In this document: piece after piece, positions 6,225-25,920 of the stretch
How positions within the stretch are numbered: position 1 is the first letter of the stretch
Layout of the letters: every line of letters begins with the position of its first letter
DNA from: Bradyrhizobium diazoefficiens
GTDB lineage: Bacteria; Pseudomonadota; Alphaproteobacteria; Rhizobiales; Xanthobacteraceae
Reading direction: 5' to 3'
Assembly: GCF_016616885.1 (NCBI RefSeq)
Contig: NZ_CP067102.1
Location: 1,702,501-1,766,500 of the forward strand
DNA length: 64,000 nt
Translations under genes and position numbers: made by a program
The notes under the pieces: model-generated
What the model saw: only the letters and a program-made list of their open reading frames with translations
The model's database searches: none
What the model was told of the DNA's origin: nothing

Positions 6225-6339
6225 CGACAATCGAGAAGGGACTCGCGAGTAAGCCCCGGCATCGAGAGATTAGGCTACTGAGGTGGTCCCGGTTGTCTGA
6301 ACAGCAACTCCGCGCCGATGAGAGGAGCTTCTGCCAGAG

Positions 6340-7095
6340 TTAGGCTGCCGCGCGGAACGGCAGCGGGTTGAAGTAAGCTTGATCCGGGGTGCCGCGGTCA
6401 AGGCTCGAGTGGGGACGCCGGCCATTGTAAAAGGCGAGGTATCGGCCGATCGAGGCGCGGGCGTCTGACACGGTGTCATAGGCGCGCAGACAGACCTCCT
6501 CATATTTGACGCTGCGCCACAGCCGCTCGACGAACACGTTGTCGCGCCAGGCGCCCCGTCCGTCCATGCTGATGGCGATGCCATGACTGGTGAGCACGCC
6601 GGTGAACGCGGCACCCGTGAACTGCGATCCCTGGTCGGTGTTGAAGATGTCCGGCCTGCCGTGGCGAGCGAGAGCGTCCTCCAGCGTCTCGACGCAGAAT
6701 GCGGCTTCCATCGTGATCGAGACACGCCACGACAGCACCCGGCGGCTGAACCAGTCGAGCACCGGGATGTAGGTGATGTCCATCGCCCAGACCTGGTTCG
6801 GGCGTGTGATCTCCATCCCGCGCAGCAGGTTTGACATGCCGGCGGCCGATCTTGCACCCCTCGGCAGCCAGCAGGTCTCGCAACATTCGCGAACCGGCGA
6901 AAGGAAACTCCAGGTGCAACCCGTCGAGCCGTCGCATGATCGCGAGGTCGGCGGGCGACCGGACGCGGCAGATAATACACACTGCCGCGGCTGATCTTCA
7001 AAACTTCCGCCTGCCTGGTGATCGGCAGGTCGTGCTCACGATCGATCATCGCTGCGCTCAGCAGGCCGGCTTTGCTGAGCGCGCCTTCTAAAAAA
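6340..7095 (-). pseudogene. IS3-family transposase orfB, broken
   Basis: Catalytic half of an IS3-family transposase. Fragments in three frames read, in order, FLEGALSKAGLLSAAMIDRE, SPADLAIMRRLDGLHLEFPF, then from 6837 an open stretch with MDITYIP, NTDQGSQFTG and VERLWRSVKYEE, which are the D, D and E of the DDE triad. Frameshifts and at least one internal deletion (between RRHVK and LLRGMEI) inactivate it. Its 5' end is cut by the IS110 insertion at 7096. Confidence 0.85.
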
Positions 7096-7322
7096 GCTAG
7101 TCTCGGCGCTACGCACCCCCTGTGGATAGAAACGGGTGGCTGCTAGACTTCGGCCGGAAGGGAGCGGCCGTCACGATTTTGGTGGCATGTCACCCCGTTA
7201 AAAAACATGGTCCATGGGTTGTTGCGCACTTGAGACTGGTGACGCCATCCGGCGATCCCGTTTAGGAATTTGACCAATAGCGCAACCCAGCCCTTCCGCT
7301 GTCGTCAGTAGGAGGATTGGAG
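7096..7322 (+). ncRNA. Candidate bridge-RNA region of IS110 copy 1
   Basis: In the IS110 family, elements with a long non-coding left end express a guide (bridge) RNA from it that pairs with target and donor DNA. This leader is conserved with 23525-23705 in blocks despite indels. Both copies have a strong hairpin GGCCGGAAGGGAGCGGCCG (GGCCG/CGGCC stem, here near 7153-7171) and a shared GTTGCGCACTTGAGA tract. TAAAAAA near 7199-7205 matches the poly-A side of the target. The RNA itself, its ends and its guide loops are inference. Confidence 0.4.
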
Positions 7323-8653
7323 ATGAACCGGAAAAACTCGAAACCCAAAATCGATCGCATGATGCCGATGATCCACTCGAACGCGGCGGCCATCGACGTT
7401 GGGGCGACTATGCACATGGCTGCCGTAAGGGCAGATCGCACGCCTGAGCCCGTGCGCAGCTTCGGTACCTTCACGGCCGATCTACATCGCCTGGTAAATT
7501 GGTTTAGGGAATGCGGCGTCGAGACGGTCGTTATGGAATCGACCAGCGTCTACTGGATTCCAATTTTTGAACTCCTCGACGCCCGTGGCTTTACCGTATT
7601 CCTCGTCAATGCGCGCGATGCCAAGCACGTGCCCGGACGCAAGACCGAAGTCAGCGATGCGCAGTGGCTACAGCGGCTACATTCCTACGGTCTGCTTCGT
7701 GCCAGCTTTCGGCCAAAAGGCCAGATCGCCGAGCTGCGTGCGTACGTACGCATATGCAGAAGGCGCTGACGGAGATGAATCTTCAGCTCCACCACGTCGT
7801 TGCCGACATCACTGGCGCGACGGGTCTGCGGATCATCCGCGCGATCCTCGCCGGCGAGCATGACCCCAAAGTGCTCGCGCACTTGCGCGATTACCGGTGC
7901 CACGCCAATGCTGAGACGATCGAGAAGGCGCTCACCGGCAGCTACCGCTCCGAGCACCTGTTTGCGCTGGAGCAGGCGCTCGCCCTCTACGACGCCTACC
8001 ACGAGAAGGTGTCTGCCTGCGACGCCCGGATCGAAGCCGTATTGAAGGAGCTCAGCATCTGTCGCGGTCGCAGATCAGATTCATTGCTGTCCCCAAGCCG
8101 GCCGAGATCCGATCAAGCGAACGGACTGGCCTTCGATGTCCCTGCGGCACTCTTCGCATTGCTTGGAAAGGACATCACGCAGATCGACGGCCTCGGTCCC
8201 TACCTCTCGCTGAAGCTGATCGCTGAATGCGGCGACGACCTTTCCGCGTGGGCAAGTGCAAAACACTTCACCTCATGGCTAGGATTGGCGCCGAGCAATA
8301 AGATCTCCGGCGGGAAGTGCTCTCGTCACGAACACGCCGTTCCGGGAGCCGGGCCGCAGCGCTTTTGCGCCTTGCCGCCGTAACTGTTGGACGGACCGAA
8401 ACAGCGCTGGGCGCATTCTATCGGAGGCTGTCCGCACGCATCGGCAAGGAAGGCGGTGACCGCCACGGCACGCAAAATTGCCGTGCTATTTTATAACGCT
8501 GTGCGTCACGGAATGGATTACGTCGATCCCGGCGCATCATTCTATGAAACCCGCTATCGCACGCGGGTGATCGATAATCTGCATCGACGCGCCAAGGTAT
8601 TCGGCTTTGTTCTCCAGCCCGTGGAGCCGACACCCAGCGCCGCCGTTTCTTAG
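7323..8653 (+). pseudogene. IS110-family transposase, frameshifted (copy 1)
   Basis: The N-terminal RuvC-like DEDD domain is clear: AAIDVGATMHMAAV (D), VMESTSVYW (E) and DAKHVPGRKTEVSDAQW (two D). After ELRAYV the frame is lost through a deletion of about 43 bases relative to the copy at 23706, and resumes at MQKALTEMNLQLHHVVADI. The C-terminal transposase domain (IDGLGPYLSLKLIAECGDDL, FTSWLGLAPSNKISGG) suffers a second frameshift near 8320; the end reads RRAKVFGFVLQP and stops at TAG 8651-8653. Start ATG 7323 follows AGGAGG. Inactive as it stands. Confidence 0.85.
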
Positions 8654-8654
8654 G

Positions 8655-8931
8655 AATCGTTTTCTAGCGTCAACTCCCCGATCTTGGCGTGCAGTGCTTT
8701 CACGTCGACGGCGGGCTCGCTCGTTCTGTTGCCACCGCCAGGACCGAACACACCGGACGCCGCTTCCTGAAGCTGGGACTTCCACTGCGTGATCTGGTTC
8801 GGATGCACGTCGAAATGCTCAGCCAGTTGGGCCAGCGTCATCTCGCCCTTGATCGCGGCTAACGCCACCTTGGCCTTGAATGCCGGTGCGTGGTGCCGGC
8901 GAGTTCATCTGCTCATCGTCTCTCCTGATTC
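8655..8931 (-). pseudogene. IS3-family orfA, frameshifted and interrupted
   Basis: This encodes the DNA-binding helix-turn-helix part of the IS3 transposase: ALAAIKGEMTLAQLAEHFDV, then HPNQITQWKSQLQE and a leucine-zipper-like AKIGELTLEND, where the reading is broken by the IS110 element. A frameshift near the start separates the likely initiation region (around 8931) from the rest. The downstream continuation is at 7095. Confidence 0.8.
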
Positions 8932-9003
8932 GCGGGACAATCTTGTCCGCCGTCAGGCAGAAACTCCACTTATCGCCCTGTCCAGATTTGCGGAGCCAGC
9001 TCA

Positions 9004-12417: not shown

Positions 12418-13439
12418 TCAGGCTTCCTTCGCCTGGCCCCAGTCGAATGATGTGCCGTCGACCCAGATGCAGTGCAGAACAACGGCGATCTTGCGCGCAA
12501 TGGCGACCTTCGCCTTCCTCGCGCCAATCCTCTTGGCGAGCTTCATTCCCCAGGCCTTGAGGGAGGACCATTTCTTCGTTCGATAAAGCAGGACGGTCGC
12601 GGCCTCGAACAGGTAAGTTCGGAGAAGACGGTCGCCCCATCGTGATATTTTGCCATTGATGTCAGTTTCGCCAGATTGATTGCGCCGAGGTGTAAGACCC
12701 AGATAGGCGCCTACGCTCAATGCCGATCGGAAGCGCGATGGGTCGTCGATCGTATGGCGGAAGCGGTCACCACACCAACACCAGGAACCGTCATCAGGCG
12801 GCGCGTCGTCTCATCGGACTTTGCCAACTGGCGGACTTCGTTGTCGAAGTTGCTTTGCTGCTAGCAGATCTGTTCATGGATCGACAGAAGCGGCGCAATC
12901 ACACCGAGGAGCTGATGATCTTTGCCCAATAGCTGGCAGACCTGATTGCGAAACTGCAGTCCGATCGCGCGAGGCAACAGCAAACCGTATTCTTTGATGA
13001 GGCTGCGGACCTGGTTCTCGATATCTCGACGCATGGCCACGAGCCGAGATCTCGCGACGAGTATAGCGCTGATCTTCTGACTTTCCTCGCTCTTGACCTT
13101 GACTTCTCGATACCAGCCAACTCGCACCAGTTCGGCCAGTCCTCGAGCATCATTCTGATCGCTCTTGTTCATGCGCACGGACAAAGCCGCGTGGGCATGC
13201 CGCGCGTCGATACAGACCACCGGAAGATCAACTCTACGAAGTTCATGCCAAAGCCAGCTCGCCATCGCCCCGGTCTCAAATCCGATGCGCTCCGCCTGTG
13301 GCGCCCGCTTGCGAAGCAGTGCCGTGAGCGCCCCGGGGTCGGACTTGACCTTTCCCTCGAACAAGACCTGACCTACTTCGTCAACCACACATACCGACGT
13401 TTCTCTTTGCGAGACATCCAGCCCAACATATTGCTTCAT
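12418..13439 (-). pseudogene. IS110-family transposase, interrupted by stop and frameshift
   Basis: The N-terminal DEDD domain starts [20 protein letters not shown], with the Glu in [12 protein letters not shown] and the last two Asp in [16 protein letters not shown]. The frame meets a TAG at 12861, then can be read on ([14 protein letters not shown]) to a frameshift near 12745, and resumes as [20 protein letters not shown] to KEA and a stop at 12418. This gives one nonsense and one frameshift in an otherwise full-length gene. It belongs to a different IS110 lineage from the copies at 7323 and 23706. Confidence 0.85.
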
Positions 13440-13560
13440 GGCCACATCCGATTCGGGAGATTGCGGGAAGGCTTGAAGATAGCGGACCTTTCGAGCCGCG
13501 GGCACCGACCGCAATTACCTCATCGTCTGCAATTTTACCGCTTCGTAAGCATCCGGTGAG

Positions 13561-23280: not shown

Positions 23281-23299
23281 CATAGTTTCGATCGAAACA

Positions 23300-23524
23300 G
23301 CCGACGCTGTATACGCGAACCGGCGAAGGGGTACTCCAGATGCAGCCGATCGAGACGCTGCATGATAGCGAGGTCGTCGAGCGACACCGACGCGGCAGAT
23401 AGTACACGCTGCCACGACTGATCTTCAAAACTTCCGCCTGTCTGGTGATCGACAGATCGTGCTCACGGTCGATCATCGTTTTGCGCTCAGCAATCCCGCC
23501 TTGGTGAGCGCACCTTCTAAAAAA
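23300..23524 (-). pseudogene. IS3-family orfB 5' fragment
   Basis: It reads FLEGALTKAGLLSAKRKTMI then DREHDLSITRQAEVLKISRG, followed after a frameshift by DRLHLEYPFAGSR, then ends. The catalytic DDE region is gone. The upstream orfA half is at 25850-25572. Confidence 0.8.
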
Positions 23525-23705
23525 CTGACCCCAGCGCTGCTCGCTCCCTGTGGGATAGAAACGCATGCCGCTAGACTGTGGGCCGGAAGGGAGCGGCCGA
23601 TATGATTTTGGTGGCATGTAACCCTGTTCAAAAGAGCTGTTGCGCACTTGAGAGTGGTGACGTGCGCAGCCCAGCCCTTCCGCTTTGGTAGCAGGAGGAT
23701 TGGAG
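23525..23705 (+). ncRNA. Candidate bridge-RNA region of IS110 copy 2
   Basis: The shorter relative of the leader at 7096-7322. The hairpin GGCCGGAAGGGAGCGGCCG, the tract GATTTTGGTGGCATGT and GTTGCGCACTTGAGA are kept, while two blocks present in copy 1 are deleted. Retention of the hairpin despite a decayed transposase is consistent with a structural RNA but may only reflect recent common origin. Confidence 0.35.
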
Positions 23706-24620
23706 ATGAGCCGCAATGGATCGAAGTCCAAGGTCGACCGCACGATGCCCATGGTGCACCCGAACGCGGCTGCCATCGACATTGGGACGACCATGCACAT
23801 GGCTGCCGTGAGGGCACATCGCACACCTGAGCCCGTACGCAGCTTCGGTACCTTCACTTCTGATCTGCATCGACTGGTCGACTGGTTTGCGGAATGCGGG
23901 GTCGAGACGGTCGTCATGGAATCGACCAGCGTCTACTGGAAACCGATTTTCGAGCTTCTCGATGCGCGCGGGTTTGCGGTGTTCCTTGTCAAAGCACGCG
24001 ATGCCAAGCACGTGCCGGGGCGCAAGACCGATGTCAGCGACGCGCAGTGGCTGCAGCGGCTCCATTCGTTTCGGGTTACTGCGGGCCAGCTTTTGGCCCA
24101 AAGGGCAGATTGCCGAACTGCGAGCCTATGTGCGTCAGCGCGAGCGTCTGCTGGAGTACTCGGCCTCGCACATCCAGCATATGCAGAAGGCGCTGACCGA
24201 GATGAATCTTCAGCTCCACCACGTCGTCGCCGATATCACCGGAGTGGCTGGTCTGGTTCGCGCGATCCTTGCCGACGTGCGCGACCCTGAGACGCTGGCG
24301 GGCTTCCGCCATTACAGTTGCCATTCCAGTCCTGAGACCATCGCGAAGGCGCTTACCGGGAGCTCCCGCGCCGCGCATTTTTTTGCGCTCGAGCAGGCAC
24401 TCGCCCTCTACGACGCTTACCAGGAGAAGGCATCTGCCTGCGACGATTGGATCGAAGCGGTGTCTTCGCTGGGACTGGCGCCGAGATCCGGCGGCAAAAT
24501 GATCTCGTCACGAACGCGCCGGTTCGGCGGGCGGGCCACGGCACTTCTTCGTCTTGCTGCGGTCACAGTCGGACGCACCGATACGGCACTCGGTGCCTTT
24601 TACAGGCGACTCTCGTCCCG
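23706..24620 (+). pseudogene. IS110-family transposase, frameshifted and truncated (copy 2)
   Basis: The N-terminal DEDD domain is present (AAIDIGTTMHMAAV, VMESTSVYW, GRKTDVSDAQW), then a one-base shift near 24070. The second frame carries YVRQRERLLEYSASHIQHMQ, the segment lost in copy 1, and reaches IEAV. A deletion then joins [20 protein letters not shown] of the C-terminal domain. The reading ends at the junction with intron sequence around 24620. Confidence 0.82.
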
Positions 24621-25488
24621 CACCGGTGCTGTTGCGGATGGTGGCGCACAGGATTGCCGATCCTCGCATTCTGCGGCTCATCGGGCTGTGGATGCGAGCC
24701 GGCGTTCTCGAGAGCGGCGAGTTGCAAGAGACGGACAGAGGCACTCCGCAAGGGGCAGGCATTAGCCCGCTCCTTGCCAACATCTTCCTGCACTACATCC
24801 TCGATCTCTGGGCCCACCAATGGCGCCGTCGTCATGCAGGCGGTCACGTTGTGATCGTGCGCTATGCCGACGACTTCGTCATGGGCTTCGAGAGCAACGC
24901 CGATGCGCAGGAAATGCTCTTGGCCCTCAAGGCGCGGCTGGCCAACTTCGGTCTGACGCTCCACAGGACAAGGCGCGGCTGATCGAGTTTGGCCGGTTCG
25001 CGGCCCTCTCGCGTCAGCGGCGCGGCGAGCGGCGGCCAGAGACCTTCGCCTTCCTCGGCTTCATCCACTACTGCGGGCGGACCCGAGATGGCCGGTTCAT
25101 CGTGAAGCACAAGACTGAAGGGAAACGCCTGACGCGCAAGCTGACGGCGCTGCGCCAGGACGCATGGCGGCTCATGCACGAGTCACTGGCCACTCAGCAC
25201 AAGTGGTTCGCCGCTGTTCTGCGTGGACACTACGGCTACTACGGCAGGCCGCACAACTACCCTGCGCTCGACGGCTTCTACCGGAACCTGCGTCGGACGT
25301 GGCTGCGCTGTCTGAGACGGCGTAGTCAGAAAAGTCGGCGCATGGGCTGGTCGGAGTTCGAGACCCTGACGGCTCGCTTCCGTCTGCCCGTTCCACGCAT
25401 CACTCGCACTTGGGCGCAGGCGCGGATACGACGCGGGTTACTCTCGGGAAGAGCCGGGTGCGGGAAATCCGCCCGCCCGGATCTGTGA
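24620..25488 (+). pseudogene. ltrA: Group II intron reverse transcriptase/maturase, 5'-truncated and frameshifted
   Basis: From about 24620 the frame reads [20 protein letters not shown], then [20 protein letters not shown] and [13 protein letters not shown], the YADD active-site motif of reverse transcriptases. A short shift near 24970 is followed by the thumb/maturase domain (ETFAFLGFIHYCGRTRDGRF; WFAAVLRGHYGYYGRPHNYP). The N-terminal fingers are missing, so the protein cannot be active. An intron domain V-like hairpin follows the gene, confirming group II intron origin. Confidence 0.85.
25450..25486 (+). ncRNA. Group II intron domain V-like hairpin
   Basis: AGAGCCGGGTGCGG, loop GAAA, then TCCGCCCGCCCGGATCTGT folds into the 34-nt type domain V hairpin with the catalytic AGC-type base and GAAA tetraloop. 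It lies at the end of the maturase remnant, where domain V belongs. Domain VI and the exact 3' splice site, somewhere in 25487-25530, are not resolved. Confidence 0.7.
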
Positions 25489-25571
25489 GGGCGAAAGCCG
25501 AATGGCTGAGCTACTCGACCACGATCGTGGAGCCCCGCAGGCAGGTGCTGGTGCTGCCGCCGTTTCTTAGG

Positions 25572-25850
25572 AATCGTTCTCCAGCGTCAGTTCTCCGATT
25601 TTGGCGTGCAGCGACTTCACGTCAATGGCGGGTAGCGCCGCCGCTGCGCTGCTCCCCGGACCAAACACATCGACGGCCCCGCCTTCAGGCTGCGCTTTCC
25701 ACGAGGTGATCTGATTGGGATGAACGTCGAACTGCTCAGCCAATTGAGTCAGTGTCCGGTCCCCCTTCAGCGCGGCAAGCGCCACTTTCGGCCTTGAAAG
25801 CCGGTGTGTGGTTTCGGCGTGTCGTCTCGTCATCGTCTCTCCTGATTCGC
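25572..25850 (-). pseudogene. IS3-family orfA, interrupted copy
   Basis: It encodes HRLSRPKVALAALKGDRTLT, QLAEQFDVHPNQITSWK and AKIGELTLEND, then breaks at the IS110 right end exactly as the copy at 8655 does. The start region may be frameshifted near 25800. Confidence 0.8.
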
Positions 25851-25920
25851 GGGTCAATCTTGCCCGCCGTCAGGCAGAAACTCCACTTATCGCACTGTGC
25901 AAATTTCCGGAGCCGGCCCT

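Follow-up and report, generated by a model that had tools for sequence, protein, structure and literature searches.

Here we present a computational analysis of a window of 64,000 nucleotides from Bradyrhizobium diazoefficiens (positions 1702501-1766500 of the 8.09 Mb single-contig genome G000), in which two insertion sequence (IS) elements of the IS110 type, designated copy 1 and copy 2, interrupt the orfA/orfB genes of two IS3-type elements at the same base (Table 1). At both insertions the left flank ends in TTCTAAAAAA and the right flank starts with AATCGTT, exactly as described in the original prediction, which had been made from the sequence alone, and a two-base core, AA, is common to element and target. 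The host IS3-type genes of both copies lie on the minus strand. The copies are indeed diverged in element as well as in flanks, with 75% identity between the IS110 elements across the first 961 bases of the query and 78% identity between the orfA flanks of their IS3 hosts.

Both copies are broken. The two domains of the copy 1 transposase, PF01548 (DEDD) and PF02371 (C-terminal), are found in different frames, and copy 1 has KTEVSDA at the position of KTDVSDA in an intact relative from another genome, L041; the D of the latter motif, replaced by E in copy 1, is what we take to be a catalytic residue. Copy 2 has a shortened leader and holds the remnant of a group II intron, giving a nest of intron within IS110 within IS3 in which the remnant stretch occupies 24640-25571 (limits set by eye). 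Pfam gave no match in two open reading frames of that stretch, and the group II intron domain was the sole Rfam match in window positions 5500-27000 at E values up to 1. Elsewhere in G000, matches of the copy 1/2 type are confined to fragments that do not exceed 140 bases and are 71-77% identical.

The point of insertion falls where orfA and orfB overlap, within a likely -1 frameshift heptamer. This was read from L121, an unoccupied copy, in another genome, of the IS3 type seen in the window, whose orfA (120 residues, ending ..LTLENDFLEGALTKAGLLSAKR; PF01527, HTH_Tnp_1, 34.9 bits) overlaps orfB (PF00665, rve core, 87.5 bits) in the -1 frame; the insertion point falls inside the overlap at GAT TTT TTA, i.e. 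in the heptamer T TTT TTA. The use of -1 frameshifting by IS3 elements is described in PMC4066793, as is the predominance of A-type motifs in the IS1 and IS3 groups. A pattern search allowing 3 mismatches found empty IS3 sites in 37 of 190 genomes, and the reversed control pattern was found in none of the same 190; L121 is the one empty site inspected individually, the rest being pattern matches. Comparison of the empty site, TTCTAAAAAATCGTT, with the ends TTCTAAAAAA and AATCGTT shows that insertion occurs without target duplication beyond the core.

The 11-base joined target, TAAAAAATCGT, occurs at 33 sites in four genomes, and since 28 of them fall on matches to the 26-base IS3 pattern used in the empty-site search, a guide match alone would nearly suffice to direct elements of the window's type to IS3. 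A fifth genome, G019, has 2 such sites, neither coinciding with the IS3 pattern, and there are none in G000, G027 or G094. Some empty IS3 copies in four genomes (G180, G122, G061 and G036) have an altered run, CTTCTAAAAACTCG, in which the heptamer is changed; these could be escapes from the guide, or drift.

Table 1. Features of the two IS110-type elements and their IS3-type hosts in the window. The outer host limits 6279, 9003, 23281 and 25920 are those of the original prediction.
Feature	Position	Strand	Basis
IS3-type host of copy 1, orfB side, ending TTCTAAAAAA (7086-7095)	6279..7095	-	tblastn with L121 orfB, 82%, E 2e-98
IS110-type element copy 1, broken; core AA (8655-8656) excluded	7096..8654	+	junctions; 76-83% full-length matches in other genomes
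Left subterminal inverted repeat AGAAACGG	7128..7135	+	read from sequence; starts 32 bases inside left end
TGCTAGACT, possible extended -10 directly before the RNA	7141..7149	+	suggested by reading the sequence
Predicted bridge RNA, copy 1	7156..7296	+	covariance model R1, 158.4 bits; sequence among the 21 used to build R1
Predicted 5' target guide ACGATTTT, pairing with right half of target AAAATCGT	7173..7180	+	
Predicted 3' target guide GTTAAAAAA, copy of left flank TTCTAAAAAA; same guide in L034	7197..7205	+	
Donor loop, 5' side GAGACTGGT; weak or doubtful pairing with left end of element	7232..7240	+	alignment, by eye
Donor loop, 3' side TTTAGGAA; copy of right end TTAGGAA (8650-8656)	7261..7268	+	co-varies with right end in relatives
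Remains of DEDD transposase gene, frameshifted and with a deletion	7323..8653	+	PF01548 and PF02371 in separate frames; translation
Right subterminal inverted repeat CCGTTTCT, 8/8 to left repeat	8643..8650	+	read from sequence
IS3-type host of copy 1, orfA side, starting with core AA, then TCGTT	8655..9003	-	tblastn with L121 orfA, 72.5%, E 1e-41; match to copy 2
IS3-type host of copy 2, short orfB remnant	23281..23524	-	L121 orfB, 88.9%, E 1e-27
IS110-type element copy 2, broken; consists of 5' part, remnant of a group II intron and right end	23525..25571	+	
Predicted bridge RNA of copy 2, truncated; lacks part of the target loop and donor loop	23585..23680	+	R1, 46.1 bits, E 2.1e-07
Group II intron domain within copy 2	25449..25519	+	Rfam RF00029, 51.7 bits, E 1e-07
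IS3-type host of copy 2, orfA side	25572..25920	-	L121 orfA, 75%, E 2e-41; match to copy 1

The region predicted to encode a bridge RNA lies upstream of the transposase gene, as in the IS110 group; the transposase stop codon is immediately followed by the element's right end in both L041 and copy 1, and the downstream RNA position of the IS1111 group is not found. Twenty-one leaders could be brought into one consensus fold with an outer stem and two loops, the target loop (closed by GGCCG/UGGUC) and the donor loop. Over its 38 consensus pairs, 99.1% of cells are paired and 5 pairs are changed on both sides, counts made on the same 21-leader alignment from which the structure was derived; when the partner columns are slid by 1-3 positions, pairing falls to 33-53%. 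The particular hairpin originally suggested as the conserved feature, GGCCG/CGGCC, is ruled out by the consensus, in which GGCCG pairs instead with UGGUC.

The two sides of the predicted target loop match the two halves of the target. The word TAAAAAA in the leader of copy 1, which had been noticed as an echo of the target, turns out to be part of the predicted 3' target guide, and most sampled members have a 3' guide like GUUAAAAAA. Guide tests were run on 83 leader records, from which one tandem copy (L103:6724) was dropped, as were records lacking a clean end or guide; for L112 the left flank was assigned manually. The 3' guide agreed with the left flank at a mean of 7.22 of 8 positions, against 6.80 after shuffling (0 of 20,000 shuffles as high; 44 unique pairs). 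In a set of 14 elements with eleven different left flanks, chosen by us to include reprogrammed variants and with left flanks entered by hand, the last seven bases of the guide gave 96.5 of 98 possible matches (0 of 20,000 shuffles), in a sample spanning Bradyrhizobium, Rhizobium, Sinorhizobium, Microvirga, Burkholderia, Polaromonas and Nostoc. The 5' guide is complementary to the right flank at a mean of 3.65 of 5 positions, against 2.91 when shuffled (0 of 20,000; 39 unique pairs), under a scoring that permits a one-base register shift. Its pairing is clearest in L144, with CGTCCGG/CCGGACG (the first two bases lying in the closing stem), and in L146, with GCCCAT/ATGGGC. Three insertions away from the IS3 site have the first bases of the usual right flank of their guide class (GTCGAT in L118, TCG in L114 and GGCC in L061).

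The donor loop bears a corresponding relation to the element's own right end. Seven right-end variants (TTAGGAA, TCAGGAA, TTAGAAG, TTGAAAG, TTGTGAG, TCAGGAG and TTGAGAG) each recur as the same word in their own leader. Of the matches between guide loops and target and element ends that the original prediction had asked for, those of both target guides and of the 3' donor side are found, and that of the 5' donor side is weak. The subterminal inverted repeat is 8 bases long in copy 1; across the family, it extends beyond GAAAC by a mean of 1.39 matching bases, against 0.68 in shuffled pairs (0 of 20,000; 41 unique pairs).

The order of the guides was examined in 64 of the 83 records. Reading the 3' side against the left flank gave 7.37 of 8 and the 5' side against the right flank 3.80 of 5; the order used by IS621 scored far lower, at 3.77 and 4.18 of 8, and was rejected. 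The top-strand guide accordingly stands 5' of the bottom-strand guide, which is the order of IS1111-type elements and not that of the IS110 group, and in the donor loop it is the 3' side that pairs with the bottom strand, again the arrangement of IS1111.

Relatives of the element are widespread. Within the genus, matches were found in 75 of 195 genomes, G000 counted, and fall into two groups. Group A, about 76-86% identical to copy 1, occupies the same base of the same IS3 type as in the window, its target T TTT TTA being antisense to the inserted element. Group B, about 64-65% identical to copy 1, follows TT(T/C)TAAAAAA or TCCTAAAAAA on the sense strand of different IS3 elements, in which orfA terminates with ..ERDILKK, and its insertion point lies in the A AAA AAG of ..CTA AAA AAG.., in the sense orientation. 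The leader covariance model matched 12 of the 397 genomes searched in the order and 3 of the 385 searched in the class (G000 counted in both), and a plasmid search at the protein level gave 391 records, distant ones included. In E. coli, 73 of 5426 genomes have at least 80% of a Citrobacter-type element, and in two E. coli chromosomes the element is bordered by an incomplete transposase gene on one side and a fragment of an IS3 transposase on the other, and it follows ..EMENEILKK. Membership of the IS110 family is indicated by the transposases of intact L041, L061, L111 and L112, all with PF01548 and PF02371 over cut-off and with NCBIfam NF033542; a sequence comparison of the L041 transposase with solved structures gave no match at E values up to 1.

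The 83 leaders were gathered by similarity to the elements and not by target, and include many close relatives that are not independent. IS3 orfA or orfB sequence lies within about 1 kb of 75 of them, and in 71 of the 75 the left flank is an A-run, the one at the orfA frameshift motif. As for the other four, the left end was not found in L047, L071 and L103:5109, and L146 is a chance neighbour, counted through an unrelated orfA on the opposite strand; element ends were located with motifs from the first copies, and diverged ends may be missed. The eight leaders with no adjoining IS3 sequence are L114, L061, L118, L106, L112, L138, L142 and L144, although the left flank of L106 reads EEREVIKK. 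Leaders with the A-type guide, window copies included, adjoin IS3 sequence in 28 of 29 cases, and 21 of the 23 whose right flank was found start TCGTT, one having TCATT at the same IS3 site and L114 lying elsewhere. Because of these relatives, same-site placement by chance in the window can be excluded. The original prediction had also proposed copies in unrelated targets as a possible refutation; most copies are at the IS3 motif, and the off-site insertions L118, L114 and L061 exist and fit their guides only in part.

Several observations on individual relatives may be recorded here. L118 is a group-B element within another IS110-type transposase gene (PF01548 and PF02371 in the remains of that gene), and the sequence at its site agrees with its 5' guide. 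Three elements on rhizobial plasmids, L138, L142 and L144, have a common target, YTGGTGGCAKTTGCTACCYAA, matched by the 3' guide; when sought as a repeat, this target gave 1 near match in 249 genomes. Tandem element copies are present in L136, L137, L103 and L148, and the 3' target guides of L136:5136 and L137:1779 equal the right end of the preceding copy, as if targeting the end of a sibling.

Two origins had been offered for the coincidence of the window copies: an old insertion duplicated with its host, or targeting of the sequence by the IS110 element. A single ancestral insertion, later copied with IS3 as a compound element, would account for the use of the same base in nearly all group-A copies, and some loci do look like this: in L041 and L066 the IS110s are 98.8% and the flanks 98.6 and 98.4% identical, and in L042 and L067, from one genome, the IS110s are 99.6%, the left flanks 100% and the right flanks 90.8% identical, the left side here being the concordant one. 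Under such descent, element and flanks should diverge together. Across 20 group-A loci, one of them copy 1 and the other 19 outside G000, left and right IS3 flank identities are correlated with each other (rho 0.91), whereas IS110 identity is correlated with the two flanks at rho 0.26 and 0.14 only. These loci are 20 of the 29 A-type leaders, picked as being at the site, after omission of those with an unclean left or right end or a flank of less than 200 bases and of off-site L114, and the correlation tests divergence only. Three pairs of IS110s that are 99.6-99.9% identical lie within IS3 copies 79-93% alike: L037/L064, from one genome (99.9%; flanks 93.4 and 92.5%), L036/L063, also from one genome (99.6%; flanks 88.2 and 79.0%), and L045/L046 (99.7%; flanks 89.9 and 85.5%). 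L034/L045 present the converse, with flanks 94.0 and 97.8% alike and IS110s 81.2% identical. Near-identical IS110s in diverged IS3s, together with the converse, therefore exclude descent of all copies from one insertion, and the occupation of other IS3 families in the other orientation by group B and the existence of off-site insertions point the same way. We consider a single origin very improbable and have rejected it on the discordance over the 20 loci; to judge from the concordant pairs, compound copying of IS3 with IS110 may also occur.

If the insertions are independent, the A-tract might still be chosen by the transposase protein itself, with the leader merely regulatory. The 3' guide is nearly invariant in the members that hit IS3, and for those alone a preference of the RNA and one of the protein are inseparable. 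Relatives with reprogrammed 3' guides speak against a protein preference, since their guides match left flanks as different as TACCTAA, TGGCGAA, ACACAAG, TATTGAG, TTCTGAG, TTGAGAG and TTGAAAG; moreover, TAAAAAA occurs 87-176 times per genome (three genomes, strands summed), far more commonly than the elements. This protein-only preference was rejected, and we rate it, if anything, even lower than a single origin. A third alternative accepts RNA guidance and holds that IS3 is only a safe multi-copy landing place and carrier, its inactivation being incidental and the frameshift role of the motif irrelevant. Repetitive elements are frequent targets of IS110 elements, according to the part of PMC11208160 consulted, and the coincidence of most TAAAAAATCGT sites with the IS3 pattern is in keeping with this view. 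Multi-copy status alone does not predict that two IS3 types, in opposite orientations, should both be struck in the orfA/orfB overlap. We give this alternative a little less than an even chance.

A number of findings weigh against guidance by a bridge RNA, or at least against a simple form of it. To judge from their sequences, both window copies are dead, and G000 has neither an intact copy of the element nor an empty site. Folding energies of single leaders were no better than those of shuffled sequences (z -0.67, 0.16 and -0.89). The 5' guides are imperfect, scoring 2.5-5 of 5, with L133 at only 2.5; some of them (L135, L144) require the one-base register shift, and L119 and L120 have the same 5' guide with different right flanks. 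Among the off-site insertions, scores against their own 5' guides were 4.5 for L118, 3 for L114 and 2.5 for L061. The 3' guides of L144 and L111 fit another element's flank better than their own (7 vs 6.5). On the donor side, the 5' guide pairs poorly with the left end, and there are one-base mismatches in the right ends of L133 (TCAGTAA) and L075 (TTAGCAA) and in the guides of L044 and L081. Four of 21 plasmid relatives (L138, L142, L144 and L146) have targets other than the IS3 motif. Finally, the guide shuffles ignore relatedness.

With these points taken into account, we remain highly confident that copies 1 and 2 are decayed members of an IS110-family lineage that chooses its target by a bridge RNA whose coding region precedes the transposase gene, as the predicted fold, the guides matching both target halves, the donor guide, the empty sites and the partly fitting off-site insertions suggest; the RNA-guided targeting raised in the original prediction is upheld to this extent. 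In the proposed mechanism, the leader RNA would be produced and would guide the recombinase, the 3' side of its target loop copying the left flank, the 5' side being complementary to the right flank and the two overlapping at the two-base core, and the 3' side of the donor loop would copy the element's right end. A near-constant A-run 3' guide would be combined with 5' guides fitted to the sequence that follows the A-run in particular IS3 families. The address would be the motif that IS3 elements have in their orfA/orfB overlap, where orfA ends, reading A AAA AAG in sense for one branch and, on the other strand, T TTT TTA for the branch of the window. Such a motif may be attractive since IS3 would need it for frameshifting and hence retain it.

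Insertion into IS3 probably disables it, and the IS110 element would thereby silence its host. The original prediction had pictured one transposon as the predator of another: as a statement about site choice this is borne out by the 75 of 83 leaders beside IS3, and preying in the full sense would entail harm to IS3 and benefit to IS110, which the insertions may bring about. We put at about even the chances of a broader proposal, namely that this is an IS110 lineage extending from Alphaproteobacteria to enteric bacteria and specialised on a heptamer that IS3 cannot easily give up, an RNA-guided transposon hyperparasite that tracks the motif across IS3 families and orientations by changing only its other guide, and that unites the RNA position of IS110 with the guide order of IS1111.

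With these findings, what was an isolated case of IS110 landing in IS3 would become a pattern common to a whole lineage, and a possible reason for it is that a functionally constrained motif makes a dependable address for an RNA guide. The eleven left flanks with matching guides provide a natural series for learning how bridge RNAs are reprogrammed, and the lineage represents a bridge-RNA type whose target loop is read in the reverse of the IS621 order with the RNA still upstream. Besides copies 1 and 2, the window contains a third IS110-type transposase fragment at 12861-13514 on the minus strand (PF01548, 77 bits), and G000 has other IS110 families with 3, 4 and 6 equal-scoring copies.

Targeting of IS3 by IS110 elements has been described before, and the bridge-RNA mechanism is established. 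Searches of open-access literature aimed at this site brought up no title or abstract opening that mentions IS110 insertion at the IS3 frameshift motif, subscription journals and preprints lying outside their reach. Going by those searches, what is new is the use of the frameshift motif, in either orientation, as the target of a whole lineage found from Alphaproteobacteria to E. coli, the natural reprogramming of both guides within one lineage, and the combination of IS110 RNA position with IS1111 guide order, as judged from these two features.

The comparison with known systems draws on parts of PMC11187229 and PMC11208160. The nearest parallel is ISEc21, a member of the IS110 family with an upstream non-coding RNA that matches its target and with IS3-family transposase genes as that target; natural redirection is likewise known there, in the relative ISMch6. 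ISEc21 targets the codons around the second D of the DDE domain (PMC11187229), whereas the target of the window lineage is the motif of the orfA/orfB overlap. The top-strand match precedes the bottom-strand match in IS1111 elements and the reverse holds in ISEc21 (PMC11187229); the ISEc21 top-strand match is thus 3' of the bottom-strand match, and that of the window lineage is 5'. With IS621 the lineage shares target and donor loops, two-sided guides in each loop and a two-base core common to target and donor. The bottom-strand guide of IS621 is on the 5' side of the loop (Durrant et al. 2024, PMC11208160), and the window lineage is reversed in the target loop and on the 3' side of the donor loop; its IS3 motif also contrasts with the REP sequences targeted by IS621. 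The IS1111 group (ISEc11, ISPa11, ISKpn4) has the top-strand guide first, as here, and a subterminal inverted repeat, of which the repeat in copy 1 may be a counterpart, and IS4321/IS5075 of that group also have mobile-element targets, the ends of the Tn21 family, going by the title of a reference. Subterminal repeats in IS1111 elements are 7-17 bases long (PMC11208160), usually 11-13 (PMC11187229), with the left one about 7 bases from the end, as against 32 bases in copy 1. The RNA of IS1111 elements usually lies downstream of the transposase, that of the window lineage upstream, and exceptions to the rule of RNA position have already been reported by Siddiquee et al. 2024 (PMC11187229).
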